A stretch of DNA of 64,000 nucleotides, taken from positions 1-64,000 of the forward strand of contig NZ_JACJSP010000011.1 of NCBI RefSeq assembly GCF_014698235.1, written 5' to 3'. This document shows positions 1 to 4,516 of the stretch, piece by piece. Position 1 is the stretch's first letter; each line of letters starts with the position of its first letter. Source of the DNA: Limnothrix sp. FACHB-406. GTDB taxonomy: Bacteria; Cyanobacteriota; Cyanobacteriia; CACIAM-69d. The position numbers were made by a program, and so were the translations under genes. Under the pieces are notes generated by a model. The model saw only the letters and a list, made by a program, of their open reading frames with translations. It ran no database searches and was not told the DNA's origin.

Positions 1-38
1 AATGAGCGTAACATTGGTGTACTACTTTTTGATTGTTT

Positions 39-71
39 GGGGTAAGAATTACATCTTCTTACCCCTTTTTT
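39..71 (+). terminator. Rho-independent terminator upstream of the truncated kinase
   Basis: A perfect 10-bp inverted repeat (39-48 paired with 56-65, 7-nt loop) is followed directly by six T residues at 66-71. This is a textbook intrinsic terminator on the plus strand. It must end a transcript entering from the left of the window; one frame closes at 43-45 inside the stem, so the upstream gene could end there. It lies only about 35 nt before the point where homology to the kinase begins. Confidence 0.85.
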
Positions 72-183
72 ATAACCTGAATCTGTCATTCAACACTTCT
101 GTTTATTTACCTATGCTAATCATCAATATTGGAGTGGGCGAGAGCTGCTGGGCTTAGCGGAGGAACTGCTGAGCCATGAAGTT

Positions 184-2415
184 GTGATTGAGCAAGTGAA
201 GCAGCAAGCAGCCTTGCGTGCGCATCAATCCTATCGACAAGTGGTGCTGAATCTCCTGGGTAGATCGACTGTTCCCTATCGTTTGCAGGGCGATGTTTTT
301 GATCTGGAGCAATTGGCTCCCTCCCTCAAGGTGGGGAATGATCGAGCCTCTCTGTTCAGTGGTTATTTGCATCAAATCTTCCTGTACTACCTATTTGAAG
401 AACATGAAGCAGCTATAGCGTTAATTCCAAGGGTTCAAGAGTATCAGGATGCAGGAATTGGCTTCTTTTCAATGTCTACTTGGGTGTTTTACCAAGCGTT
501 AATCGAACTTCAGCAGTACTCTTTGGCAACATCATCAGAACAGACCAAAATTTGGGAATCAGTGCAAGGGGCCCAAGATCGCCTTCATCAATGGGCAGTT
601 TATGCGCCAGAAAATCAAGCGCATCGTTGGCAATTGGTGGCGGCTGAGGTTAATCGAGTGTTGGGGCAAAAAACTGAAGCGATCGAGACCTATGACTGTG
701 CGATCGCTGATGCTAAAAAAAGTGGGTTTTCCCATGAGGAAGCTCTGGCCAATGAGCTGGCAGCAAAGTTCTACCTCCAATGGGGTAAAGAAAAGGTGGC
801 TGCCGGTTATATGCAAGAGGCTTACTATGGCTATGCGCGTTGGGGTGCGAAGGCCAAAACTGCGGATTTGGAGCGACGCTATCCACAGTTGTTGAGTCCA
901 ATTTTGCGAGCGCCTGTGCCAGTTTTTAATCCCTTAGAAACGCTGGCAGCGGCTACAATTCCGCCGGCACTCCGCACATCTGCAATTCACAATTCTTCAG
1001 GCCAGGTTAGTGGTACGCCCAGTTCTTCTGCTTCCGACGTGAATGAAATGTTGGATTTGGCGGCGGTCATTCGTGCTTCTCAGACCTTGGCCGGTACGAT
1101 TCAGTTAGATGATTTGTTGCGGCAACTAACACAAATTGTTTTGCAATGTTCGGGTGGCGATCGCTGTGCGCTGGTGGTTGCCGGTGGTGAAGGTGATTGG
1201 CAGGTGCGGGCGATCGCCCAGCCAGAATCAGTGAAAGTCTGCACAGAATCTTTGGAAACTTGCCCTGTTTTGCCAGTGCAGTTGGTGCAGTATGTGAAGA
1301 ACACTGAGACAACAGTGGTGATTGACCAGGGCCAAACCAGCCTGCCCATCACAGATCAATATTTGATTCAGGCTGCCCCTAAAAGTGTGTTGTGCTTGCC
1401 AATTTTGAACCAATCGCAGTTGGTGGCGATTTTATATTTAGAAAATAGCGCGGTGGCTAATGTTTTTACGAACGATCGCCTACTGGTCTTGAACTTTCTC
1501 TGTGCCCAGGCTGCGATTTCTCTGGAAAATTCACGCCTATATCAGCAAGCCCAAACCTATGCCCACCAGCTTGAGCAGTCCCAATTACAGGTGGTGCAAA
1601 GCGAAAAAATGGCCTCGTTGGGCAATTTGGTAGCTGGTGTGGCCCATGAAATTAATAACCCGATCGGCTTTTTAAATGGCAGTATCCAAAATCTTCAGGA
1701 TTCCATTGGAGATTTGCTAAGCCATCTATCGCTCTATCGGCAATATTACCCTGATCCTGAATCGGCCATTGAAAGCCATGCGGAAGCGATCGAACTAGAC
1801 TTTTTAAGTGAAGATTTGCCGACGCTCTTGAAGTCTATGCAGTTAGCAACCGATCGAATCAAGGGAATTAGTAATAGCTTGCGAACCTTCTCGAGGGCGG
1901 ACACCCAATATAAGATTCAGGCTCATCTTCACGAAGGGATTGATAGTACGCTGCTAATTTTGAAATATCGACTGAAGGCGAATGAGTATCGCCCAGCGAT
2001 TCAAGTGATTCAAGACTATGGCAATGTGCCCCCGATCGATTGCTTTCCGGGGCAACTGAACCAGGTGTTTATGAATTTGCTGGCCAACGCGATCGATATG
2101 TTTGATGAGTTGGCCCAGGGGTCACCCTTTGAGCATTGGGTTGCCCATCCGCAACAAATTACAATCTGTACCCAAGTTGTGGATCAACAGGTGCAGATTG
2201 CTATTCGGGATAATGGGAAAGGGATGAGCGAAGCGGTGCGATCGAATATTTTTGACCATGCCTTCACGACAAAAGCCGTGGGCAAGGGAACGGGGTTGGG
2301 ATTAGCGATCGCCCGCCAAATTGTTGTGGATAAACACGGGGGGAGCTTGGAGGTGCGATCCGAGATTGGCCAAGGTGCAGAATTTCTGATCAGCTTGCCA
2401 ATTCATGGAGATTAA
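184..2415 (+). CDS. GAF-histidine kinase, N-terminally truncated remnant of a giant Ser/Thr kinase-ATPase-sensor kinase
   Basis: The product has a helical TPR-like region (residues 1-250), a GAF domain (about 290-455), a HisKA domain with phospho-acceptor His488 in GVAHEINNP, and a complete HATPase_c domain (N box NLLANAID about 632, DNGKGM about 676, GKGTGLGLA about 701). The first 150 residues resemble the middle of cyanobacterial proteins that carry a Ser/Thr kinase and an AAA-type ATPase upstream of GAF and HisKA. Those N-terminal domains are absent. The frame stays open and family-like upstream to about position 103 (YWSGRELLGLAEEL) with no ATG, and stops at 73-75. A GTG at 184 is the first usual start and has no well-spaced Shine-Dalgarno. 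The kinase core looks intact, but expression is doubtful. I infer a 5' deletion or an insertion/rearrangement left of the window. The partner regulator is unknown. Confidence 0.75.
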   Translation: MIEQVKQQAALRAHQSYRQVVLNLLGRSTVPYRLQGDVFDLEQLAPSLKVGNDRASLFSGYLHQIFLYYLFEEHEAAIALIPRVQEYQDAGIGFFSMSTWVFYQALIELQQYSLATSSEQTKIWESVQGAQDRLHQWAVYAPENQAHRWQLVAAEVNRVLGQKTEAIETYDCAIADAKKSGFSHEEALANELAAKFYLQWGKEKVAAGYMQEAYYGYARWGAKAKTADLERRYPQLLSPILRAPVPVFNPLETLAAATIPPALRTSAIHNSSGQVSGTPSSSASDVNEMLDLAAVIRASQTLAGTIQLDDLLRQLTQIVLQCSGGDRCALVVAGGEGDWQVRAIAQPESVKVCTESLETCPVLPVQLVQYVKNTETTVVIDQGQTSLPITDQYLIQAAPKSVLCLPILNQSQLVAILYLENSAVANVFTNDRLLVLNFLCAQAAISLENSRLYQQAQTYAHQLEQSQLQVVQSEKMASLGNLVAGVAHEINNPIGFLNGSIQNLQDSIGDLLSHLSLYRQYYPDPESAIESHAEAIELDFLSEDLPTLLKSMQLATDRIKGISNSLRTFSRADTQYKIQAHLHEGIDSTLLILKYRLKANEYRPAIQVIQDYGNVPPIDCFPGQLNQVFMNLLANAIDMFDELAQGSPFEHWVAHPQQITICTQVVDQQVQIAIRDNGKGMSEAVRSNIFDHAFTTKAVGKGTGLGLAIARQIVVDKHGGSLEVRSEIGQGAEFLISLPIHGD

Positions 2416-2438
2416 GGCTGTGAGATTAAGGCTGTGAG
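2411..2438. repeat. 14-bp perfect tandem duplication over a stop codon
   Basis: The unit ATTAAGGCTGTGAG occurs twice in tandem. The TAA stop of the histidine kinase (2413-2415) lies in the first copy. The duplication sits in the 41-bp gap between the convergent kinase and fabH genes. Confidence 0.9.
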
Positions 2439-2456
2439 TCGGTTGGGCTGTGGCGG

Positions 2457-3479
2457 TCAGCGGCCCCAACGGACAATGACCGCGCCCCAGGACAGACCAG
2501 CCCCAAACCCAGCCAGGGCCAAGGTTTGGCCGGGCTGAATTCGTCCGTCACGAACCGCTTCATCAAGGGCGATCGGGATGGAGGCGGCGGATGTGTTGCC
2601 GTATCGCTCTAAGTTGCTGATGGTTTTTTCGTGGGGCAACCCAAGGCGATCAGCCACCGCATCGATGATTCGTTGATTCGCTTGGTGCAACAGCAGCCAA
2701 TCTACTTGCTCGATCGACCGTTCCGCCCGATGCAAGGCCTTCTCGATCGCCTCGGGAACTCGCTTAACGGCAAAACGATAGACTTCCTGACCGTTCATGG
2801 TGATCGGCTGAAAATTGCCTTGACCCACCACGGTTCCGTTTTTGAGAGGCTGCTCGATCGTCTCCCCCGCCAGGTTCAAGACATGGTTCATGGAGCCATC
2901 GCTGCGTAGCTCAAACCCCAGCAGAGCATCGCTAGCGGCGGGTTGCTCCTGCAAATCGATCGCCTGTAACACCACAGCCCCTGCCCCGTCGCCAAACAGG
3001 ATGCAAGTGCCCCGATCGTTCCAGTTCACCCAGCGCGAGAGCACATCGGCCCCAATCAGCAGCACATTGCGATAAACACCCGATCGCAAAAACTGAGCCG
3101 CCGTCACCAAGCCAAACGCAAACCCCGAGCAAGCCGCCGTCAAATCCATCGCCACCGCGTGGCTCGCCCCGATCGCCCCTTGGATCGCCCCAGCACTCCC
3201 GAACAAATCATCGGGCGTGGAGGTGGCCAGCAAAATCAAATCCAAATCAGCCGCCTGGAGATCCGCCATCGCCAACGCCCGCTGAGCAGCCTTTGCGGCC
3301 AACGGCGTGAGGGACTCCTGCGGTTGCGCCAAGCGCCGTTGACGGATTCCCGTTCGCGTGGCAATCCACTCGTCGGAGGTTTCAACCAACTGCTCTAGGG
3401 CGAGGTTGTCTAAAATTCCATCCGGCAAAGCTGAACCGCTGCCAATGAGGGCGATTCCAAAGGGCGATCGCGTTTGCAT
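2457..3479 (-). CDS. fabH: 3-oxoacyl-ACP synthase III (KAS III, FabH)
   Basis: FabH condenses acetyl-CoA with malonyl-ACP to start each round of fatty-acid synthesis in the cytosol. The 340-aa thiolase-fold protein carries the KAS III triad: Cys117 in AACSGFAFG, His265 in HQANQRI and Asn295 in YGNTSAAS. Length is normal for the family. The ATG overlaps the plsX stop by one base (TAATG at 3477-3481), so the two genes are translationally coupled and co-transcribed with plsX first. plsX-fabH is a common bacterial arrangement that links fatty-acid initiation to phospholipid synthesis. Confidence 0.96.
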   Translation of the reverse strand: MQTRSPFGIALIGSGSALPDGILDNLALEQLVETSDEWIATRTGIRQRRLAQPQESLTPLAAKAAQRALAMADLQAADLDLILLATSTPDDLFGSAGAIQGAIGASHAVAMDLTAACSGFAFGLVTAAQFLRSGVYRNVLLIGADVLSRWVNWNDRGTCILFGDGAGAVVLQAIDLQEQPAASDALLGFELRSDGSMNHVLNLAGETIEQPLKNGTVVGQGNFQPITMNGQEVYRFAVKRVPEAIEKALHRAERSIEQVDWLLLHQANQRIIDAVADRLGLPHEKTISNLERYGNTSAASIPIALDEAVRDGRIQPGQTLALAGFGAGLSWGAVIVRWGR

Positions 3480-4516
3480 TAATTCTCCGAAGCAACAGCC
3501 TGCTGCACGCTTTGTTGATACTGGGCTTGGATTCGCTCAATCACACGAGATTCCACAGCCGCCTTGGCGAGGCGGATGGCCCCAAAGGCTGAAGGGGCCC
3601 GCGAGCTGCCATGGCCAATAATGCAAACCCCGTTCACGCCCAGCAACAAACCGCCCCCATGCTCCGCATGATCGACCCGTTGCTTAATGCGCTTCAGGTT
3701 GTGCTTCAACACCGTGACCCCAATTTTGCCGCGTGTGCCCTTGGGTAGTTCTTCCTTCACCACCTGAAGCATCGCGCTGCCCACCGCTTCCGCGAACTTC
3801 AGCAGCACATTGCCCACAAAGCCATCACAAACAGCCACATCGAACTGGCCTGAGAGGATATCGCGCCCCTCGGCATTGCCCGCAAAGTGAATGGCGGGAT
3901 TTTCCGACAGCAACTGATGGGCCCGCAGGGCCAGTTCATTGCCCTTACATTCCTCTTCGCCAATGTTGACCAAGCCCACATTGGGCCGTTCCACCCCCAA
4001 AACATGTTGGCTGTAGATGGAACCCATCACGGCAAATTGCTCTAGGAATTTGGGGCGACAGTCCACATTGGCCCCCACATCCAAGATCAAAACTTGCTTG
4101 CCATTGACCTGGGTTGGCAACACGGCCCCGATCGCGGGGCGTTCAATGCCCGGAATTCGTCCCAACCGCAGCAGTGCCGCCGCCATGGACGCGCCCGAGT
4201 GCCCCGCCGAAACCACAGCATCGGCTCGGCCTTCCTTGACCAGATTCGTGGCCACATTGATGGAAGAATTGGGTTTGCGGCGCAGGGCGGTTAATGGCTC
4301 TTCGTCCATCTCCACCACACCATCGGCGGGCACAATTTCGAGGTTTGAACCAGCATTGTGCTCTTTCAGGCAAGCCTCGATTTTGTGGGGATCACCGACT
4401 AGCAGAACCTTAACCCCCAGTTCTTCGCTGGCGCGCACGGCTCCGGCGACGATTTCTTCGGGGGCATAGTCGCCGCCCATTGCGTCAATTGCGATTCGAT
4501 CCCCAGTTGACCCCAT
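3479..4516 (-). CDS. plsX: Phosphate acyltransferase PlsX
   Basis: PlsX converts acyl-ACP and phosphate to acyl-phosphate, the donor for PlsY in phospholipid synthesis, and acts at the inner face of the plasma membrane. The start used here gives 345 aa beginning MGSTGDRIAIDAMGGD; IAIDAMGGD is the characteristic N-terminal motif. A further 27 in-frame codons upstream (to 4597) do not look like the family and are left out. The glycine-rich segments VVSAGHSGA and the C-terminal GGGLLLGVNG are also typical. It is the first gene of the plsX-fabH operon; its stop overlaps the fabH start. Confidence 0.95.
   Translation of the reverse strand: MGSTGDRIAIDAMGGDYAPEEIVAGAVRASEELGVKVLLVGDPHKIEACLKEHNAGSNLEIVPADGVVEMDEEPLTALRRKPNSSINVATNLVKEGRADAVVSAGHSGASMAAALLRLGRIPGIERPAIGAVLPTQVNGKQVLILDVGANVDCRPKFLEQFAVMGSIYSQHVLGVERPNVGLVNIGEEECKGNELALRAHQLLSENPAIHFAGNAEGRDILSGQFDVAVCDGFVGNVLLKFAEAVGSAMLQVVKEELPKGTRGKIGVTVLKHNLKRIKQRVDHAEHGGGLLLGVNGVCIIGHGSSRAPSAFGAIRLAKAAVESRVIERIQAQYQQSVQQAVASEN

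Follow-up and report, generated by a model that had tools for sequence, protein, structure and literature searches.

The closest described counterparts of the gene discussed here are the cyanobacterial dual kinases of the cbSTKIII group, represented in Anabaena PCC 7120 by HstK/Alr2258, Pkn40/Alr0709 and Pkn41/Alr0710 (PMC2176072). For the mobile DNA that adjoins it, the closest counterparts are IS4-family insertion sequences (ISs) and, for the junction, events in the E. coli LTEE lines, where a target duplication is reported in 69 of 69 plain IS insertions and none in 14 of 14 events that combined an IS with a deletion (PMC11708052). We analysed a window of 64,000 nucleotides from Limnothrix sp. 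FACHB-406, corresponding to positions 1–64000 of contig C11 in a 38-contig draft genome (G000); the first base of the window is the end of the contig. We consider it very likely that a giant dual kinase gene at this end is interrupted in codon 1053 by an insertion sequence that we name IS-A, most of whose other copies are flanked by 9-bp duplications, and that the remaining part of the gene represents a young pseudogene. The locus combines a commonplace IS disruption with a break in the assembly, and both of its sides are of known kinds (probably an IS4-family IS, and a cbSTKIII dual kinase). Among the papers listed by a literature search on Limnothrix ISs, which include the one on the sister genome (PMC6256058), none was seen to deal with this insertion. 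Coordinates are collected in Table 1.

Table 1. Features at the left end of the window and at related places in the draft genome.
Feature	Location	Strand	Basis or remark
Right (transposase-start) tip of the multicopy IS-A (probable IS4 family), outer end ...ATTCAACACTTCTG	1..101	.	15 contig tips, differing flanks, complete relative in G028
Start of the IS-A transposase frame (MLRS...), truncated by the contig end	1..14	-	Extends to 69 residues at the tips of C17 and C1
Terminator-like hairpin and T-run within the IS tip, facing the kinase remnant	39..71	+	Fold; like hairpin in the G028 IS
IS/kinase junction	101..102	.	Base 102 falls within codon 1053 (intact gene, 1823 codons)
TTTATTTAC, the 9 bp expected to be duplicated by plain IS-A insertion	102..110	+	15 left tips compared
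Remaining 3' portion of the giant hybrid kinase, probable pseudogene	102..2415	+	First start codon GTG 184
Other tips with the window 1–101 repeat	C25, C18, C16, C15, C9 (x2), C8, C6, C4, C1, C29, C2, C17, C10		
Halves of the second giant kinase	L222 (C15) 1-3602; L223 (C32) 1-2007		
IS5-family element tip where the front part breaks off in its Ser/Thr kinase domain	L059 (C17:94000-95533) 1435-1534		

The DNA at the very edge of the window is repetitive. Window positions 1–101 (98–101 bases of the stretch) recur at 14 other contig tips, with different flanking DNA each time, and all 15 of these right tips terminate in ATTCAACACTTCTG. The opposite end of IS-A is present at a second set of 15 places and carries the same ATTCAACACTTCTG letters on its outward strand, with one base changed in 2 of the 15 left tips (C12 and C30). 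IS-A therefore has terminal inverted repeats, its right and left tips both ending in ATTCAACACTTCTG. Because IS-A is repeated, the assembly is broken at window base 1. The original prediction was that an insertion or deletion had fused a foreign 3' end to the kinase gene. The junction is real, the class of cause was right and foreign DNA did behead the gene, but the edge of the window marks where a repeat broke the assembly, and the foreign DNA is the transposase-start end of a probable IS4-family IS. The 3' end of a foreign gene is thus rejected as the source of positions 1–101, the tip being the 5' end of a transposase gene on the minus strand.

The likeliest start of the IS-A transposase is the ATG at 14–12, although the frame is open further up, to position 89. 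When the right tip is extended on contigs C17 and C1, its minus strand encodes MLRSFSQIVKPILKSLPEHDYPVLSSRRFFEIWLTFILDQG..., and this transposase start is 74% identical over 68 residues to seven transposase copies in another cyanobacterium (G028). The G028 transposase (337 amino acids, read from one locus) belongs to the IS4 family (NF033592 transpos_IS4_1 type), with 165 bits against a cut-off of 115. The 69-residue stretch from G000 alone has no match to Pfam or NCBIfam models and no complete copy of IS-A is assembled in G000, so that the family assignment comes from the G028 relative. IS-A is thus probably an IS4-family insertion sequence. Relatives of its transposase are present in 7 of 30 genomes, G000 included. 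Within this 30-genome search the transposase start is absent from both other genomes of the same genus, so IS-A probably arrived recently. One IS-A copy (L062, C1:470600-472125) is nested inside another, about 195 bases from the left end of the outer copy. Elsewhere, at positions 2880–3227 of L023 (C3:1-4000), an orphan 27-bp IS-A tip adjoins a 5'-truncated IS5-family element, perhaps the scar of an older IS-linked deletion.

Between the transposase start and the end of the IS there is a hairpin, GGGGTAAGAA-TTACATC-TTCTTACCCC, at positions 39–65, followed by six T residues to position 71. Its RNA fold has an energy of −15.2 kcal/mol (z −3.6; 1 of 200 shuffles was equally good), which bears out the strong terminator predicted at 39–71. 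A plain terminator scan of positions 1–4000 gave no excess (3 found vs 5.0 expected), and the case for the hairpin therefore rests on its fold and on a like hairpin in the related IS. In G028, as judged by eye, the related IS carries a T-run and a hairpin of different stem sequence, placed about as far from an identical CAACACTTCTG end; of the three loci at which we read it, L207 and L214 show the hairpin and L208 does so less clearly. A chance hairpin is rejected by the fold z-score and by this counterpart. The terminator is therefore part of IS-A, and it would stop transcripts leaving the IS in the direction of the kinase.

Homology to kinase DNA begins abruptly at base 102, one base away from the predicted onset at about position 103: by BLASTN, window 102–4478 corresponds to L114 8134–12501, with 94% identity over 4,377 bp. 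In Limnothrix sp. CACIAM 69d (G001, MKGP02000053.1), a member of the same genus, the orthologue is a single frame of 1823 codons that contains the domains Pkinase (137 bits), AAA_16 (151), GAF (43), HisKA (34) and HATPase_c (74), so the Ser/Thr kinase and AAA ATPase that relatives were said to carry upstream are indeed there. The window retains the C-terminal 770 codons of the giant kinase. Its own frame encodes 743 amino acids, in which Pfam recognizes GAF, HisKA and HATPase_c only, and from which the Ser/Thr kinase and AAA parts are missing. The original prediction had set a truncated gene against a short gene shared with close relatives; the closest relative carries the long gene, and a normal stand-alone kinase gene is rejected on this ground. 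More widely, the upstream frame keeps at least 900 open codons in 65 of 79 relatives, stops earlier in 8, and reaches the edge of the available DNA first in the remaining 6. G000 itself contains five other long frames of the giant-kinase kind (1806–2094 codons). A relative from the same family has a 736-codon frame (L090, G003:C86) matching fragment residues 91–767, which is possibly a natural short form.

Most IS-A copies look like the products of simple transposition. We compared the bases next to the junctions of the 15 right and 15 left tips, a comparison in which a match of at least 8 bases has a chance of 5 x 10−5 per random pair, and found that 13 of the 15 right tips pair with 13 of the 15 left tips by an exact duplication of at least 9 bp. 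These pairs establish that IS-A is a mobile element. Contig-tip repeats in a draft genome can thus be read as IS tips, and pairing them by their target duplications helps to order the contigs. These pairs also bear on the idea that the assembler falsely joined an IS tip to the kinase. The join does sit at a contig end and within a repeat, but an overlap of about 101 bp is shared by many other contig ends in this assembly (62 shared 40-mers per strand), and target duplications confirm 13 of the 15 joins of this type; we find such a chimera hardly credible.

IS-A has cut a second giant Ser/Thr-histidine kinase gene in this genome. Contig C32 ends ...GNQFSLD before a left tip, and C15 resumes with SLDMLAIV after a right tip; the two sides match the G001 kinase at residues 30–651 and 643–1822, and the 9-bp duplication AGTTTGGAT is perfect, with both halves present and nothing missing. 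A plain insertion at the window site should have left the same picture. At the window tip, however, the corresponding TTTATTTAC has no copy at any of the 15 left tips read, which counts against a clean insertion for the window copy itself. The second right tip without a partner is on C1, where an IS-A is nested inside an IS-A and a missing partner is expected. There are likewise two unpaired left tips, the outer one on C1 and that on C12, and attempts to place their flanks on G001 gave just short, weak matches. The missing duplication permits an IS-linked deletion but does not establish one. Either the left partner of the window copy sits on an unseen contig or it was lost by deletion or recombination, and we regard these two readings as about equal.

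The front part of the kinase gene lies on another contig. DNA from upstream in G001 matches a region near the end of C17 at 92–93% identity, in the order upstream neighbour gene and then kinase codons 1–171 (a 175-amino-acid frame), and the gene is cut there within its Ser/Thr kinase domain, beside an IS5-family element. The gene order in G001 suggests that the end of C17 and the start of C11 are neighbours in G000. Four contig tips carry this IS5-family repeat, and C3 has an internal copy in which the terminal part of an IS5-family transposase is encoded (46.7 bits, below the whole-protein cut-off because only 58 residues were scored). A second end of this element was not recognised among the contig tips read. 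The 2,643 bp that would lie between the front part and the window (L114 5491–8133) have no close match in the readable contigs of G000, where the longer matches to the segment come from paralogues and reach at most about 75%. Two contigs, C37 (2,921 bp) and C38 (2,690 bp), read wholly as N and C36 does so in part, so the loss of the 2,643-bp middle is not proven.

The insertion of IS-A into the giant kinase gene can accordingly be refined in two ways. We see an even chance that there were two plain insertions, of the IS5-family element at codon 171 and of IS-A at codon 1053, and that the middle is still present, unseen in the draft. Both elements are repeats that end contigs, 13 of the 15 IS-A right tips look like plain insertions, and the expected piece of about 2.9 kb falls in the size range of the contigs that read as N; against this, no readable contig holds the middle, and neither element has a partner tip at this kinase gene among the tips read. 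Almost as probable is that an IS-linked adjacent deletion, or recombination between ISs, removed the 2,643 bp between codons 171 and 1053. The middle finds only paralogues in G000, the window tip has no target duplication, as in all of the LTEE deletion events (PMC11708052), and the orphan 27-bp IS-A tip elsewhere in the genome stands beside a truncated IS5-family copy. Yet the middle with its IS tips would form a contig of about 2.9 kb, close to what C37 and C38, and C36 in part, could conceal behind their N, and the left tips of C12 and the outer C1 copy lack partners too, as would result if small contigs had been dropped.

Whichever way the gene was cut, little in the DNA suggests that the remnant is expressed. 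As predicted, the first possible start codon is GTG 184, in a kinase frame that is open from position 76. This GTG is an internal codon in the intact orthologue, no ribosome site is obvious ahead of it by eye, and plus-strand positions 1–522 gave no sigma-70-like promoter site. Relative to G001, dN/dS is 0.095 for the remnant and 0.165 for the 171-codon front, compared with 0.028 and 0.095 for two neighbour genes. The value for the remnant is as low as that of one neighbour and gives no sign of decay so far, which is consistent with a young event and also with function. We therefore weighed whether the remnant could be a working stand-alone GAF-histidine kinase, translated from GTG 184, and judge this very unlikely. 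Its 743-amino-acid frame is intact and keeps every histidine-kinase domain, its dN/dS is low, and 3 of the 79 related loci (L172, L201 and L203) have an upstream stop no more than about 135 codons away from the equivalent position; opposing this are the want of promoter-like and ribosome sites, the internal position of the GTG, a terminator that points into the remnant, and the 65 related loci that keep the long upstream frame. Of the suggestion that the freed kinase core is silent or rewired, the rewired half is left unsupported by the same features.

In the sequence of events that we propose, the transposase would have put IS-A into codon 1053, leaving the remnant without promoter, start codon or N-terminal domains and with the IS terminator pointing at it. 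Its product would not be made, or would be made in traces at most, and for this reason the 743-amino-acid remnant is most likely a young pseudogene. Loss of the giant kinase probably costs the cell little, because G000 retains paralogues. For annotation, the 743-amino-acid "sensor histidine kinase" at the contig start should read as a fragment of an 1823-codon gene, and the terminator ahead of its frame as part of a mobile element. Two giant dual kinases of this strain are cut by IS-A, and one of them has perhaps also been gutted by a second IS. We think it most improbable that such kinases are repeated IS targets here and that the strain retains and expresses the GAF-histidine kinase half set free; if that were true, IS insertion would convert a Ser/Thr-gated kinase into an ungated one.

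The locus resembles known systems on each of its sides. IS-A resembles IS4-family ISs in the DDE transposase of its G028 relative, in having ATTCAACACTTCTG at both ends and in the 9-bp duplications at 13 sites, but for the window copy no target duplication can be seen, and G000 contains no completely assembled IS-A. As at the LTEE IS-plus-deletion junctions, an IS end here abuts gene-internal sequence and has no partner duplication; all 14 of those events involved IS150, whereas the IS in the window is probably of the IS4 family and its deletion is putative (PMC11708052). The window frame differs from the cbSTKIII dual kinases in being without the Ser/Thr kinase and AAA parts, whereas the intact G001 orthologue, as they do, unites Ser/Thr kinase, GAF and HisKA domains in a single protein (PMC2176072).
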